The translations under genes and the position numbers were made by a program. Under the pieces are notes generated by a model. The model did no database searches and was not told the DNA's origin. It was given only the letters and a program-made list of their open reading frames with translations. Shown here piece by piece: positions 53,364-58,402 of a DNA stretch of 64,000 nucleotides. Each line of letters begins with the position of its first letter. Within the stretch, counting starts at the first letter, position 1. Origin of the DNA: Enteractinococcus coprophilus (GTDB lineage Bacteria; Actinomycetota; Actinomycetes; Actinomycetales; Micrococcaceae); NCBI RefSeq assembly GCF_006716305.1, contig NZ_VFOU01000002.1:372001-436000 (forward strand), written 5' to 3'.

Positions 53364-54071
53364 CTAACCCTGGTCTATCACCGATAGTGACTGCAGAGTC
53401 TTTTCTAGATGGTACTGCAAATACTGTGCGACAAAACTGGTGGCCTGCCGTATTTGTGCTGGCTCCGCTTGGGACACGATCGTCCAGTCTCCCGCTAATA
53501 AAGCGGCTAGGAGAGCTACGACATCATCCGTTGCGTACGGTGTCTGCGGTGGCGCACAGTCGTCACACACGACGCCACCTAGCGATACCGACAACCAATT
53601 ATGACGCCCCTGAATACCGCATTTGCTGCATTCACCAAAGGTGGGGGCCCACCCTGCAATAGCTAACGCCCGCAGCAAGTACGAGGCCAACAACATGATG
53701 GGTGAAGCAGCGCGACGTGCTAACGCGGCAATCGCGCCATGTAACAGCCGATACTGCTGCGCTGCACCCGCGGTGTCTTCATCTCGTGTGAGCTGTTCGG
53801 CCGTCTCGACCATAGCCGAGGCGGCTCCAAAACTGTCGTAGTCGTTGGTGAGCATCATTCCGTATGGGTGAATGGTCTCGGTTTGGACGATAATGTGCAT
53901 ATCCCGTCGGGGCACAATCTGCAGTCGCGTGTGCATAAACGGTTCCAACGTCGAACCAAATTTGGATGTCGTTCGGCGCACGCCTTTGGCAACAGCTCGA
54001 ATCTGACCGCGATCTGCGGTAAGGATAACGATAATCCGATCAGCTTCTGCCAGCTTATAGGTGCGCAACAC
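53364..54071 (-). CDS. recO: DNA repair protein RecO (start uncertain)
   Basis: RecFOR pathway mediator that loads RecA at gaps. From the GTG at 54071 the protein has 235 residues with a zinc site C-x2-C-x16-C-x2-C (ECSKCG and VVCDDC, about 148-171). This start is too short: the same frame upstream continues with SYRTHGIV, matching the usual RecO N-terminus before LRTYKLAEADRI, but it has no ATG, GTG or TTG until the stop region of leuA. An ATA at 54101 would give the family-like beginning (SQSYRTHG). The gene follows leuA by 68 bases. Confidence 0.88.
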   Translation of the reverse strand: MLRTYKLAEADRIIVILTADRGQIRAVAKGVRRTTSKFGSTLEPFMHTRLQIVPRRDMHIIVQTETIHPYGMMLTNDYDSFGAASAMVETAEQLTRDEDTAGAAQQYRLLHGAIAALARRAASPIMLLASYLLRALAIAGWAPTFGECSKCGIQGRHNWLSVSLGGVVCDDCAPPQTPYATDDVVALLAALLAGDWTIVSQAEPAQIRQATSFVAQYLQYHLEKTLQSLSVIDQG

Positions 54072-54138
54072 AATCCCGTGGGTCCGGTAGCTTTGCGATA
54101 TATAGGTACCGGATCCACGGGAGCGCTTACGGGGTGTT

Positions 54139-55905
54139 TTATTCAGCGGTTTGTTCAGCCTTTACATCACGCAGGTACCGATTGACTGCAGAAGTGACAG
54201 CCTGCAGCGAGGCAGTTGAGGTGTTATGGTCCAGCCCGATACCCCACAGTACGCGGTCGCCGATGGCAGCTTCAACGTACGCAACAGCCATGGCCTCGCC
54301 ACCTTCGGTCAGCGCGTGCTCTGTGTAATCCAGCACGCGGACATCAACCTCGGCCTGGTGGAACATTTTAACTAGTGCGGAAATCGGGCCATTGCCGGTA
54401 GCCGTCCGGGTCACGATTTCACCGTCACGCTCCATCTTGACTTCCATTGAAAAGTCACCATCCTCAGTGGTGGACGACGTGGAAGACACCAGGTGGTAGT
54501 GACCCCAGCGTTCTATTGGATCATCGGTCGGGAGGTACTCGTTGGCGAAGACTTCCCAGAGGGTTTCAGACGATATTTCACCACCGTGGGTGTCGGTGTA
54601 ATCTTTGATGACCGCGGAGAATTCGACTTGGGCGCGACGGGGCAGCTCCAGGTTGTAATCTGTTTTGAGCATGTAAGCGACCCCACCCTTGCCCGATTGC
54701 GAGTTCACGCGGATAACCGCTTCGTAGCTGCGACCGATGTCTTCCGGGTCAATTGGCAGGTACGGGACACCCCAGTCGAGTTCGTCGGTCGTAACGCCAG
54801 CTTCTGCGGCCCGGGCGTCCATGTCTTCGAAGCCTTTTTTGATCGCGTCCTGATGCGATCCGGAGAATGCGGTGAACACGAGTTCGCCGGCCCACGGGGA
54901 ACGCTCGTGCACTTTCATTTGGGTGGCGTATTCGTAGACTTCTTGAATCTTGTCCATATCGGAAAAGTCGATTTCAGGGTCAATGCCCTGAGTGTAGAGG
55001 TTCATCCCGAGCGTGACGAGATCAACGTTACCGGTACGTTCTCCGTTGCCGAACAGGCAGCCCTCGATGCGGTCAGCGCCCGCCATGTACCCCAGCTCAG
55101 CAGCTGCTACGCCTGAACCACGGTCGTTGTGCGGGTGCAGCGACAGGATGATCGCATCGCGATTTTCAATGTTGCGGTGCATCCATTCGATCTGGTCGGC
55201 GTACCGGTTCGGAGTCGACATCTCGACGGTGGCCGGAAGATTGAGAATCATTTGCCGGTCGGTGGAGGCTTCCAGGACTTCGGCAACTTTATTGGAGATC
55301 TCAGCAGCGAATTCTAATTCAGTTCCCGTAAAGGACTCTGGTGAGTACTGATAGGTAATCGCAGTATCAGTCAGTTGTTCTTCGTATTTGCGGCACAGCA
55401 TGGCGCCGCGGGTGGCGATATCGATGATGCCGTTTTTGTCTTCCCGGAAGACCACGCGTCGTTGCAATACGGATGTTGAGTTGTATAGGTGCACGATGGC
55501 TCGCGGAGCGCCTTCGAGCGCTTCATAGGTGCGTTCAATGAGGTGTTCCCGGGACTGGGTCAGCACTTGGATGTGCACGTCTTCGGGAATACGATCTTCT
55601 ACGATCAACTGCCGTACGAAGTCGTAGTCAGTTTGGGATGCGGAAGGGAATCCGACTTCAATTTCTTTGTAACCCATCTCAACCAGCAGTTCGAACATCC
55701 GCATCTTGCGTTCCGGGTCCATGGGATTGACCAGCGCTTGGTTACCATCGCGCAGGTCGACCGCGCACCATCGAGGAGCTTTTGTGATGACTTGGTCTGG
55801 CCAGGTGCGATCCGGCAGGTTGACGGCAATTTGTTGTTCGAAGGGGACGTATTTATTAAATTTCATCCCGGATGGTTGCTGAAAATTCCGCAAAGTATTC
55901 CTCAT
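54139..55905 (-). CDS. leuA: 2-isopropylmalate synthase LeuA
   Basis: A 588-residue enzyme that condenses acetyl-CoA with 2-ketoisovalerate, the committed step of leucine synthesis. The TIM-barrel has the metal site DLRDGNQALVNPM and HPHNDRGSGVAAAELGYMAG, plus EGCLFGNGERTGNVD. The C-terminal ~130 residues form the leucine-binding allosteric domain (TATGNGPISALVKMF). The N-terminus MRNTLRNFQQPSGM fits the long actinobacterial form (LeuA type 2). The upstream region holds a Leu-rich leader peptide, so it is probably attenuated by leucine supply as well as feedback inhibited. Confidence 0.95.
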   Translation of the reverse strand: MRNTLRNFQQPSGMKFNKYVPFEQQIAVNLPDRTWPDQVITKAPRWCAVDLRDGNQALVNPMDPERKMRMFELLVEMGYKEIEVGFPSASQTDYDFVRQLIVEDRIPEDVHIQVLTQSREHLIERTYEALEGAPRAIVHLYNSTSVLQRRVVFREDKNGIIDIATRGAMLCRKYEEQLTDTAITYQYSPESFTGTELEFAAEISNKVAEVLEASTDRQMILNLPATVEMSTPNRYADQIEWMHRNIENRDAIILSLHPHNDRGSGVAAAELGYMAGADRIEGCLFGNGERTGNVDLVTLGMNLYTQGIDPEIDFSDMDKIQEVYEYATQMKVHERSPWAGELVFTAFSGSHQDAIKKGFEDMDARAAEAGVTTDELDWGVPYLPIDPEDIGRSYEAVIRVNSQSGKGGVAYMLKTDYNLELPRRAQVEFSAVIKDYTDTHGGEISSETLWEVFANEYLPTDDPIERWGHYHLVSSTSSTTEDGDFSMEVKMERDGEIVTRTATGNGPISALVKMFHQAEVDVRVLDYTEHALTEGGEAMAVAYVEAAIGDRVLWGIGLDHNTSTASLQAVTSAVNRYLRDVKAEQTAE

Positions 55906-56060
55906 TCTTTGAAACTGCCTGGTCCTGTGACGAGTTTAGTGGACCGTTGACGACAAACCGGTGTGTGAGCATTCATGTCTGACCGGTGGCAGGTCGTGTA
56001 TCTCGCTCCGCAACGGGGTCGACCCTACCTGATGGCGTTCAAAGCGTGTGCTTGAAGAAC
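55906..56060 (-). promoter_or_regulatory. leuA 5' untranslated region downstream of the leader ORF
   Basis: This stretch lies between the leader peptide stop and the leuA start. It holds a small hairpin (TTCAAGC-ACAC-GCTTTGAA, 56039-56057, with a one-base bulge), the palindrome GGGTCGACCC (about 56018-56027), and two copies of ACCGGT that can pair. No T-run terminator is visible, so any control would be through translation or a Rho-dependent mechanism. Promoter boxes could not be placed. Confidence 0.45.
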
Positions 56061-56143
56061 CTAGGCCCCGCTACGGCACGGTAGTAGCAGGCCTAGGAGA
56101 GCACCAAGAAGGGCACGGTGACGACCGCGCGATAGGGTGCTCT
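56060..56143 (-). promoter_or_regulatory. two adjacent hairpins spanning the leu leader codons
   Basis: Hairpin A: AGAGCACC (56098-56105) pairs with GGTGCTCT (56136-56143). Hairpin B: CCTAGGCC (56060-56067) pairs with GGCCTAGG (56090-56097), with inner GCTAC/GTAGTAGC pairing. They abut exactly. A ribosome stalled at the leader Leu codons (56111-56082) would cover the 3' arm of A and the 5' arm of B, in transcript direction, so its position should decide which hairpin forms. Confidence 0.65.
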
Positions 56144-56156
56144 GAACACAATGCAT
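56061..56156 (-). CDS. leu leader peptide (LeuL-like), 31 residues
   Basis: A 31-codon frame from ATG at 56156 to TAG at 56063-56061, too short for normal ORF calling. It encodes the stretch ALLGALLGLLLP with seven Leu codons in ten (CTT CTT ... CTC CTA ... CTG CTA CTA), including three CTA. It is read in the direction of leuA, about 155 bases upstream. Its own Leu codons fall inside two adjacent hairpins (56098-56143 and 56060-56097). An AGG eight bases before the ATG is a weak ribosome site. This is the layout of a leucine attenuator, as described for leuA of other actinobacteria; function is inferred. Confidence 0.72.
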   Translation of the reverse strand: MHCVQSTLSRGRHRALLGALLGLLLPCRSGA

Positions 56157-56180
56157 GTGGGTAGCCTAACACCGCTCCTG

Positions 56181-57131
56181 TCAGAATCCCAAACGATTCA
56201 TATACTTCGGATTTCGTTGCCATTCTTTGGCGACCTTGACGACCAGGTCGAGATACACTCGTGTGCCCAGAAGTTTCTGAATATTCTTGCGTGCTCGTTG
56301 CCCGATGGCTTGTAACTGCCGGCCGCCTTTGCCGATGATAATGCCTTTTTGGCTATCACGTTCAACGTAGATCTCCGCGTAAATATCCGTGATCGGTTGA
56401 TCTTCGGGCTGGCCCTCGCGTAGGCCCATTTCTGTTACGACGACGGCCAGAGAGTGCGGCAATTCATCAAAGACATCTTCCAGCGCAGCTTCTCGAATGA
56501 GTTCAGCGACCATAATGTCGTCGGGTTCGTCGGTCACTTCGCCATCAGGATACAACGGGGGCGATTTCGGCAAGTACTTGGTCAGGACTTCCACCACGGT
56601 GTTTACTTGTACGTCACCTTGGACCGAAACTGGAACGATCTCTGTGAATCCTGTACTGGTATCCGGCGTGATGATTTCTTCACCAAGTTGTTGGACTGCG
56701 ATCAACTGATCTGCAAGCACTCCGCGGGTGACCGTATCAACCTTGGTTACCAACGCGATAATCGGGGTGTTGTGAAGCTTTGCTAATTGTTCGGCGATGA
56801 ACCGATCCCCTGGTCCGATCTTTTCATTGGCTGGGATACACATCGCGACCGCGTCCATGCCTGCAAGGGTTTCCGCAACCAGTTCGTTGAGGCGTTCTCC
56901 AAGCAGTGTTCTAGGTCGGTGAAGTCCTGGTGTATCGACCAGTATGAGTTGGTGGTCATCGCCCGATACGATGCCGCGGATCACACGTCGTGTGGTTTGG
57001 GGCTTCGAAGAGGTGATGGCGATCTTTGAACCAACCATCGCATTGGTTAAAGTGGATTTTCCGACATTCGGTCGACCGACCAGGCTGACGAATCCAGAAC
57101 GGAAGTGTTCGGGATAATCGGTTGGCATCAT
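56181..57131 (-). CDS. era: GTPase Era
   Basis: Ribosome-assembly GTPase of 316 residues that checks the 3' end of 16S rRNA. G1 is GRPNVGKST (about 19-27), G3 is DTPGLH and G4 is TKVD. The C-terminal KH domain carries GIIIGKGGRQLQAIG at about 270. Its start codon overlaps the end of the CNNM gene by four bases (ATGA type), so translation is coupled. The order ybeY-CNNM-era-(leuA)-recO is a classic ribosome/repair cluster, here interrupted by leuA. Confidence 0.95.
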   Translation of the reverse strand: MMPTDYPEHFRSGFVSLVGRPNVGKSTLTNAMVGSKIAITSSKPQTTRRVIRGIVSGDDHQLILVDTPGLHRPRTLLGERLNELVAETLAGMDAVAMCIPANEKIGPGDRFIAEQLAKLHNTPIIALVTKVDTVTRGVLADQLIAVQQLGEEIITPDTSTGFTEIVPVSVQGDVQVNTVVEVLTKYLPKSPPLYPDGEVTDEPDDIMVAELIREAALEDVFDELPHSLAVVVTEMGLREGQPEDQPITDIYAEIYVERDSQKGIIIGKGGRQLQAIGQRARKNIQKLLGTRVYLDLVVKVAKEWQRNPKYMNRLGF

Positions 57132-58402
57132 GGCGTGGTCCCCTCGGTGGATGAGTGTACGGTGACTTTGATGGTGTCGACTCGATTGCGTTTTCCCGCA
57201 AGTGATGCAACGGTCAACGTGAGGTGTTCGATATCGGTGACCGAGCCTTCAACCGGAATTTTACCCAAGCTTTTGGCCAGCAGGCCGCCGACGGTGTCGA
57301 CGTCTTCATCATCATCGAGAAATAGATTGAACTCTTCAGAGAAGTCGGTGACCGACATGGAAGCATTCACCAGGAATTCTCCGTTGGGCTGTGGGATCAC
57401 ATCAGCGATTTCCACGTCGTCATACTCATCTGAAATATCCCCGACGAGTTCTTCGATCAGGTCTTCTAACGTCACAAGGCCCGCGGTACCGCCATATTCG
57501 TCGACGACGATAGCCGCGTGGACGGCTTCGCGCTGGAGCTCCTGTAACAGATCCCACACAGATTTCGACTCAGGGACCACCCGAATGTCACGTACCAAAA
57601 GGTTAACTGGGTCCTCGGGAGATAAGCGTCGAGTGTGGGTAGCGCGAACGATGTCTTTGAGAAAAACGATGCCCAGGACGTCATCGGGACTTTCGCCAAT
57701 GAGGGGAATACGAGAGAAACCAGAGTCGATAAAGATCTCTGTTGCTGCGGCTAGAGTGGTGCCCGATTCAAGCCACACGACATCAGTACGTGGGACCATG
57801 ATGGCGCGGACCAGTGTGTCGTCCATTTCGAAGACCGACTGAATCATCTCGGCTTCGTCGTCTTCTAAGACGTCGGCTTTGGATGCGCGCGAGACATATT
57901 CGCGGAAGTGTTTTTCTTCGAGATCGTTTTCATCGTTTTCGTCGTCATCTTCGGTATCGGCATCGGCGATGAACAAGCCTGGGACCGGTCCAAGGATCGC
58001 GGTCAGGAGACGGACGAGCCATGCGGTTCCTTGTGCTGAGGCCTCATAGTGTTTGGCACCGATTTTCCGCGGGCTACGAAATGCCGAGAGTAAGGTGATG
58101 ACTCCCATCACCAGGATGCCCCCGACAGCAGATAGCCACACGTTATTGACAAAATGGTCAATAAACACCGTTATGAGAACCGCCGACGTGGTCAGGAAGA
58201 CGCTACTCCAAAACCGGACAGCCAGCTGGTGTTCGGGCAGTCGATCCAGCACCTGAAGAATGGGGTTTCCTGGGCGTTTAGCAACGACGGCTTCGGCTTC
58301 ACGGTACGAGACGTAATCGAACGCTGACTCAGCAAGATTTAACACCCAGGTCAGTGCGAGGCTGACGATAAATAATATCGCCAGGATAATCGGGACGACC
58401 AC
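57128..58402 (-). CDS. CNNM/CBS-domain (CorC/HlyC family) membrane protein
   Basis: A 424-residue protein of the family often called hemolysin-like or magnesium/cobalt efflux. An N-terminal DUF21/CNNM domain has about four hydrophobic segments (PIILAILFIVSLALTWVLNL, then VFLTTSAVLITVFI and others). Two CBS domains follow at about 205-330 (MVPRTDVVWLESGTTLAAAT; DEYGGTAGLVTLEDLIEELV), then a C-terminal CorC-type transporter-associated domain. It likely moves divalent cations or regulates their transport. It is translationally coupled to era and sits between ybeY and era. Confidence 0.88.
   Translation of the reverse strand: MVVPIILAILFIVSLALTWVLNLAESAFDYVSYREAEAVVAKRPGNPILQVLDRLPEHQLAVRFWSSVFLTTSAVLITVFIDHFVNNVWLSAVGGILVMGVITLLSAFRSPRKIGAKHYEASAQGTAWLVRLLTAILGPVPGLFIADADTEDDDENDENDLEEKHFREYVSRASKADVLEDDEAEMIQSVFEMDDTLVRAIMVPRTDVVWLESGTTLAAATEIFIDSGFSRIPLIGESPDDVLGIVFLKDIVRATHTRRLSPEDPVNLLVRDIRVVPESKSVWDLLQELQREAVHAAIVVDEYGGTAGLVTLEDLIEELVGDISDEYDDVEIADVIPQPNGEFLVNASMSVTDFSEEFNLFLDDDEDVDTVGGLLAKSLGKIPVEGSVTDIEHLTLTVASLAGKRNRVDTIKVTVHSSTEGTTP

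Follow-up and report, generated by a model that had tools for sequence, protein, structure and literature searches.

How is leuA, the gene for 2-isopropylmalate synthase, regulated in Enteractinococcus coprophilus? The question is raised by a stretch of 64,000 nucleotides (nt) of its genome (contig NZ_VFOU01000002.1, positions 372,001 to 436,000; hereafter the window), in which a short leucine-rich open reading frame (ORF) lies between era and leuA on the minus strand. This leader represents, with lineage-specific additions, the LEU element that Seliverstov et al. described in 2005 for leuA of actinobacteria (PMC1262725). We consider it probable that it acts as a leucine-responsive leader of leuA, in which the ribosome stalls on leucine codons. 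The coding part comprises two features:

56061-56156, minus strand: leader peptide ORF, MHCVQSTLSRGRHRALLGALLGLLLPCRSGA and its stop codon, from translation; similar C-terminal ends occur in the genus and in other genera.
56082-56111, minus strand: sensor run, seven Leu in ten codons (CUU CUU GGU GCU CUC CUA GGC CUG CUA CUA), from translation and from codon bias relative to leuA.

The ORF has 31 codons, of which codons 16-25 read L L G A L L G L L L, so that the length and the leucine run given in the initial annotation are confirmed. It is found at all nine loci of the genus, where the three insertions or deletions (3, 3 and 18 nt) are all in-frame. The C-terminus is LLL(P/S)CRxGA in the genus, but LLLSCRSEA in L005; elsewhere, among 50 upstream regions, it is often similar to LLLLSCRGE. 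Control of leuA by a leader of Leu codons, proposed for this locus from its sequence, is thus supported as a kind of system. The leader was called unannotated at that time; the class of element to which it belongs is the one already described in PMC1262725.

What is the conserved RNA structure? The initial annotation had put two abutting hairpins at the core. The conserved switch is instead a pseudoknot found across the class and reaching further downstream; it follows the Leu codons at a distance of a few bases and lies inside the interval then considered (55906-56156), but had been missed. It is built from two helices:

56066-56076, minus strand: helix A, 5′ arm, CCGUAGCGGGG; genus and 99-locus alignments.
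56008-56018, minus strand: helix A, 3′ arm, CCCCGUUGCGG; genus and 99-locus alignments.
56020-56029, minus strand: helix B, 5′ arm, within the loop of helix A, base 56025 being bulged; genus alignment (two double-changed pairs), and none of 5000 partner swaps as good.
55988-55996, minus strand: helix B, 3′ arm, CGACCUGCC; partner swap and genus alignment.

We located LeuA in 57 of 59 relatives and examined 50 upstream regions. In 47 of these an 11-base-pair (bp) helix A directly follows the Leu codons, and helix B opens in the loop of A and ends beyond it; the arms of B were chosen there by pairing, so that this search is no test of B. Addition of 80 named loci gave 130 leuA upstream regions, of which 120 have helix A after the Leu codons and seven lack it; L032 was refitted. 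Automatic fits of helix A in L117, L121 and L123 were dropped as false by eye. Of the 120 loci, 107 have a 5-bp helix B by a narrow search, with L032 unscored. Removal of five duplicates from the 120 left 115 elements.

The pairing was analyzed in an alignment (A2) made without reference to structure, comprising the 107 loci left when the genus is represented by one member, less eight with long loops, i.e. 99 loci. Of the 1089 cells of helix A, 98.4% are paired, and six of its 11 pairs show changes on both sides. Its covariation is 0.231 compared with 0.157 in shuffles, a value attained by none of 500. Exchange of partners between loci, in a test that treats the loci as unrelated and ignores kinship, matched the true pairing in 0/5000 trials for helix A and 0/5000 for helix B, with control pairings at 1610 to 4443/5000. 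Within the nine loci of the genus helix A is 99.0% paired with one double-changed pair, and helix B 96.3% with two. The full genus set of 40 pairs, in which the inner stem of hairpin 1 and a hairpin ahead of leuA (both described below) are counted, has five double-changed pairs, a number attained by 8/500 shuffles; its covariation score was attained by none of the 500.

The element extends over the whole class. Among class genomes with completeness of 98% or more, our model R1 matches 191 of 196 (E up to 0.01); in a phylum-wide sample it matches 52 of 298 genomes (E up to 0.001). Three of the R1 matches lie outside the class. Two fall in one family, and one of these (L157) is a leuA leader on reading; the third (G151/L158) looks false. 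With the threshold relaxed to E up to 0.1, a second model lacking the Leu run, R2, matches 36 of 38 class genomes. Loci L161-L220 from the class-wide searches stand as model matches alone. The window's element is matched at E 3.3e-4, being itself one of the 99 training sequences, and the genome carries one copy (E up to 1). Comparison with Rfam (T-box, riboswitches and known leaders) gave no relevant match in window positions 54000-58000 at E up to 5, nor in seven relatives at E up to 0.5.

Since helices A and B covary, and are nearly universal in the class, the alignments point to selection acting on the leader RNA. This bears on whether leucine control of leuA might be exerted at the promoter only, by an IclR-type regulator of the LtbR/NdgR kind, the leader being a relic or a simple 5′ structure. 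In S. coelicolor NdgR was found to bind ahead of most genes for branched-chain amino acids; its motif at leuA was a prediction only (PMC4340878). Faced with an RNA under selection, we regard control by the promoter alone as highly improbable.

What would sense leucine? The leader favors Leu codons that are rare in leuA. At 89 loci, over three positions before helix A, CUU accounts for 121 of 259 leader Leu codons, compared with 89 of 3741 in leuA of the same loci; for CUA the numbers are 20/259 and 27/3741. The leader stop codon lies 2 or 5 nt beyond helix A in 80 of 115 elements. The start codon in turn is tied to a promoter box:

56163-56171, minus strand: TGT-TAGGCT, an extended -10 promoter box separated by 6 nt from the leader ATG; TAnnnT statistics.

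Of 115 leuA elements, 113 have a TAnnnT sequence 4-10 nt ahead of an in-frame leader start, 94 of them at 6-7 nt; when the upstream bases were shuffled 200 times the mean was 13.8 elements and the maximum 22. TAnnnT boxes are commonly read as promoters. With the box 6 nt before the ATG, we therefore predict that the leader transcript is leaderless, like that of leuL1 in Streptomyces lividans (taken up below), and that transcription begins on or beside the ATG itself.

Does the sensor change with the gene? Second or third model matches are present in 19 of the 52 genomes of the phylum-wide sample; one of the second matches, L156, looks false. Leaving out L156 and L158, 38 places (second copies and some first) were classed by tblastn of the following 2.6 kilobases (kb). 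The downstream gene is leuA or a leuA paralogue in 16, leuB in eight, leuC in two and a small gene resembling the allosteric domain of LeuA in six; six were unassigned, and at L235-L240 no gene was recognizable among the references over 2.6 kb. In seven of the eight leuB places ilvE follows leuB. Family searches confirmed leuB for L141 and L142 and leuC for L143. Of five small LeuA-domain-like genes searched, two reached the cut-off of Pfam LeuA_dimer, one fell below it and two had no match. Leaders before leuB include MRHALILRCRGGA, MRQVLVLITCRGGA and MRKQLVVIACRGGAS, and those before leuC are VRAQRLLLRCRGGASS and MRAPRRLLLRCRGGASI.

The codons before helix A follow these classes. Ile occurs within the last five codons in 8/8 leuB-class elements compared with 8/107 leuA elements (Fisher p = 2e-8), and Val within the same span in 6/6 LeuA_dimer-class elements compared with 5/107 (p = 2e-7); these p-values are optimistic, as related genomes were counted singly. 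The same five codons include Val in 7/8 and Leu in 8/8 of the leuB class, and Leu in 5/6 and Ile in 0/6 of the LeuA_dimer class. L235, which resembles a true Ile-type leader, was excluded from the comparison. G037, G052 and G378 each carry a leuA element together with a leuB element in one genome. The LeuA_dimer-class genes are:

L152:710-1105; L153:4559-4993 (minus strand); L154; L155; L159; L226: stand-alone LeuA-allosteric-domain-like genes behind a pseudoknot leader of Val and mostly Leu codons.

Sensor codons that depend on the gene are the pattern that would be expected of a codon-reading device, and the swap therefore favors ribosome stalling, against the 2005 conclusion. The describers of the element (PMC1262725) held translation of the leader to be unlikely, and proposed a binding protein on the strength of the phylogenetic pattern and of leader mutants. 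On that account the leader RNA is a protein site and the peptide secondary, which would agree with the missing codon periodicity of the leader within the genus (see below). Yet a mere protein site would not be expected to change the codons before helix A with the downstream gene; nor does it suit a leader that prefers Leu codons rare in leuA and has its start codon tied to a promoter box. We judge the protein-site account decidedly improbable.

If the ribosome is the sensor, the sequence of events might be as follows. Ribosomes would load directly on the leaderless 5′ end. With charged Leu-tRNA scarce, a ribosome would stall on the last Leu codons and cover the 5′ arm of helix A; the pseudoknot would not then form, and leuA would be expressed. 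With ample leucine it would reach the UAG two bases past the helix A arm and depart, the pseudoknot would close and leuA would be lowered. The sensor step, in which a stall on the last Leu codons blocks helix A, is likely; the output step is the least certain part. In the genus there would be an extra component, hairpin 2, which takes in the Leu run and the helix A arm and could provide a competing ribosome-free state. It is one of the two hairpins of the initial annotation:

56136-56143, minus strand: hairpin 1, 5′ arm, partner 56098-56105; outer stem with 97.2% of cells paired and a single compensated pair across nine genomes.
56124-56130 with 56113-56119, minus strand: hairpin 1, inner stem; 88.9% of cells paired and again a single compensated pair across nine genomes.
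56098-56105, minus strand: hairpin 1, 3′ arm, partner 56136-56143; genus alignment.
56089-56096, minus strand: hairpin 2 core, 5′ arm, lying in the Leu run and pairing with 56061-56068; a competitor of helix A.
56061-56068, minus strand: hairpin 2 core, 3′ arm, which takes in the leader stop codon; genus alignment.

Folding of the leader RNA gives both hairpins, exactly abutting as had been stated, with hairpin 1 closing at 56098 and hairpin 2 opening at 56097. The stability of the fold is modest taken alone (z = -1.71; 9 of 200 shuffles equally or more stable). Both hairpins persist throughout the genus (nine genomes), where the ORF is likewise conserved; the absence from close relatives that would have spoken against the proposal is not seen. 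This conservation goes beyond chance: hairpin 1 has one compensated pair in each stem, and hairpin 2 is 98-100% paired with zero double changes.

Ribosome position was modelled by nested folding, which is unable to represent a pseudoknot, with a blocked footprint of -14 to +16 assumed, the span generally taken for a ribosome. With the ribosome on Leu 2, 3, 4 or 5 in the window, helix A is formed with probability 0.85, 0.99, 0.99 and 0.62, respectively; on Leu 3-4 hairpin 2 is removed and helix A is free to form. With the ribosome on Leu 6-7 or the stop codon neither hairpin 2 nor helix A forms. In these models hairpin 2 and helix A are mutually exclusive. The earlier idea of hairpins as alternative targets of ribosome position therefore holds in part: they respond to the modelled ribosome, but the two occur together in the minimum-energy fold, and the alternative to hairpin 2 is helix A.

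Could the working switch of the genus be these two hairpins and not the pseudoknot? Both are kept in all nine genomes, and in the window and L004 hairpin 2 is the dominant structure when no ribosome is present. Against this, the hairpins coexist without alternation, helix A dominates in six of the nine ribosome-free folds (one further is mixed), and double changes are found in helices A and B but not in hairpin 2. A switch made of the two hairpins thus appears improbable.

A number of observations weigh against ribosome stalling with the pseudoknot as the switch. In the window without a ribosome, nested folding gives hairpin 2 = 1.00 and helix A = 0. Exposure of the Shine-Dalgarno sequence has no consistent direction with modelled ribosome position across the nine genomes. 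Variable columns of the genus leader are distributed 13/13/13 over the codon positions, so that there is no codon periodicity, and substitution patterns thus seem to give no sign of translation. Twelve of the 120 loci with helix A lack helix B in the narrow search, and the partner swaps that support both helices take no account of kinship. Pairing of the Leu run with the Shine-Dalgarno region is weak in the window (-4.8 kcal/mol for an 18-nt site, -10.7 for the longer region). Lastly, 195-662 nt separate the element from leuB in the leuB class.

This last distance misfits a translational output unless an intervening small ORF is the target, and such an ORF may be the real target of the Ile/Val/Leu-type element. 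A small ORF ending like ALQEAMDRRDNGGETGH follows elements of this type at seven of nine loci:

L232:2372-2470 (minus strand); L141:647-709; L142:4823-4921 (minus strand); L222:479-613; L233; L234; L235: small ORF of the ALQEAMDRRDNGGETGH type.

At L235 the small ORF is present, with no leuB within the 2.6 kb read. Four of the seven ORFs were searched, and none matched a Pfam or NCBIfam family at cut-off. By eye, a TAnnnT box stands 6-7 nt before the leuB start at L141, L222, L225, L232, L233 and L234. leuB may have its own leaderless promoter.

How, then, would the pseudoknot lower leuA? Control of translation initiation is favored, because no intrinsic terminator is found and, in most relatives, little sequence separates the end of the element from the ribosome-binding site, and because the distance from helix A to the start is short at most leuA loci and at two leuC loci. 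That distance has a median of 60 nt (quartiles 53-74) over 105 loci, 10 of the 115 without a usable leuA start having been excluded from this count and from the Shine-Dalgarno swaps below; it is 114 nt in the window, and at the two leuC loci about 16-21 nt separate the element from the start of the gene. No intrinsic terminator, that is a GC hairpin with a U tract, is placed to act before leuA, in agreement with the initial annotation: a scan of the region gave one weak terminator-like site, in the inner stem of hairpin 1 and ahead of the Leu codons, with a chance expectation of 0.8 (standard deviation 1.1).

The same element and sensor could alternatively act through premature Rho-dependent termination, if the leader ribosome shielded, or the pseudoknot exposed, a site for Rho loading before leuA. 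The missing terminator, the 114 nt of the window and the long interval ahead of leuB are compatible with this, and the text of PMC1262725 suggests Rho for similar cys leaders. The usual spacing at leuA and the 16-21 nt at leuC nevertheless leave it little room, and we think Rho unlikely, if a contender to be taken seriously.

Translational control invites a search for pairing with the leuA ribosome-binding site. The base stem between the Leu run and the Shine-Dalgarno sequence published for LEU elements (PMC1262725, from its text) is unconvincing in the window. Its support in swap tests varies with the sample, at 3-76/5000 class-wide and 469-2187/5000 in an order-level set; a first version of the test with a short site gave 3/5000 on the nine genus loci. 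PMC1262725 also has an alternative hairpin that shares this base stem. In that first version a good score (31/5000, 47 loci) was likewise obtained when the Shine-Dalgarno region was set against the helix A 5′ arm. Pairing of the helix B 3′ arm with the ribosome-binding site is attractive by eye but gains little from the swaps: an 18-nt site gave no signal (2168-2334/5000), and a longer leuA region little (222/5000 for all loci, 611/5000 with one genus member, 1219/5000 at order level). It stands as a lead only:

55915-55919, minus strand: GGCAG, close to the leuA ribosome-binding site, with which 55988-55992 of the helix B 3′ arm might pair as an alternative; invariant in nine genomes.

L009 and L010 have both CUGCC and GGCAG, while L014, L015, L049 and L059 have CUGCC without GGCAG; in other Micrococcaceae the corresponding pairing by eye is GGCC/AAAGGCC. 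Between the pseudoknot and leuA (55915-55987, minus strand) GGACCAGGCAG is present at all nine genus loci, as are two ACCGGT palindromes, the first altered in L003. Here too lies a further hairpin:

55921-55945, minus strand: hairpin GGUCC/GGACC, arms 55941-55945 and 55921-55925, ahead of the leuA ribosome-binding site; every cell paired (100%), with a single G-U change and zero double changes.

The surrounding genes on the minus strand run era, leader ORF, leuA, recO and a transferase of the uppS type. The features adjoining the leader are:

57131-56181, minus strand: era; NF000908 match.
55899-55903, minus strand: leuA Shine-Dalgarno sequence GAGGA; aligned across nine genus genomes.
54139-55893, minus strand: leuA, 2-isopropylmalate synthase; NF002991 876 bits and TIGR00970 789 bits against a cut-off of 697, computed on the ORF beginning at 55905; start from the genus alignment.

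The protein is 94% identical to LeuA of Enteractinococcus helveticum (NZ_LXEY01000018.1, Micrococcaceae), the closest named record. The ORF list places the leuA start at ATG 55905. That ATG is present at three of nine genus loci and is out of frame in L002 and L003, while TTG 55893, preceded by GAGGA at 55903-55899, is common to all nine and aligns with the ATG or GTG starts of many loci from other genera. leuA therefore probably starts at TTG 55893. Calling ORFs from the first ATG puts the start four codons too early (55893-55905, minus strand). The corrected start and the easily missed leader ORF are relevant to the engineering of leucine production in actinobacteria.

The window locus is ordinary in kind and its assignment well supported; the comparison across genomes is the more interesting, as it reopens the mechanism of the whole family. 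On balance, and with less assurance than for the window itself, we suggest that the LEU element belongs, as one branch, to a family of pseudoknot switches with leaderless leaders that spans the class Actinomycetes. The pseudoknot would be constant and the codons exchanged according to target: Leu for leuA and leuC; Ile, Val and Leu for leuB-ilvE or a small protein gene before leuB; and Val and Leu for the stand-alone LeuA regulatory domain. The family would work by ribosome stalling, probably acting on translation. A literature search of titles and abstract openings, covering few subscription papers, gave no report of such elements at leuB, leuC or a small LeuA-domain gene. In 2005 the mechanism of the element was left unsettled; the codon swap, the codon bias and the promoter-to-start spacing provide independent grounds for stalling.

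How does the window compare with known leaders? Like the LEU elements of PMC1262725 it has a leader ORF with a Leu run before leuA, followed at once by a conserved pseudoknot, and no obvious terminator; our equation of helices A and B with the published helices is inferred from the text of that paper and not from its alignment figure. Unlike LEU elements generally, its leader is long (31 codons compared with a median of 15 in 113 elements), its helix A-to-leuA spacer is nearly twice the median, and it has an extra hairpin over the first Leu codons and another competing with helix A. The leuL leaders of S. lividans (MRFGLLLLSCRGEGL), Corynebacterium glutamicum (MTSRANLLLLRRGGSQRS) and C. diphtheriae (MNRANLLLLRRGGSQA), as given in PMC8079986, PMC5784534 and PMC8709942, share the Leu run followed by an Arg-Gly motif, with an N-terminus shorter than that of the window leader. 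The S. lividans leuL1 transcript is described in PMC8079986 as leaderless and without a typical terminator. In a (p)ppGpp-free strain of C. glutamicum leuL and leuA were up after 5 min of total starvation, a response that is not leucine-specific (PMC6892785). With the classical attenuators treated in PMC1262725, trp of Corynebacterium and Streptomyces and leuS of Streptomyces, the window shares a leader peptide whose codon run serves as sensor, and alternative RNA structures. It differs from them in having no U-tract terminator. If our reading is correct, this is a ribosome-stalling switch in which a pseudoknot replaces the antiterminator/terminator pair.
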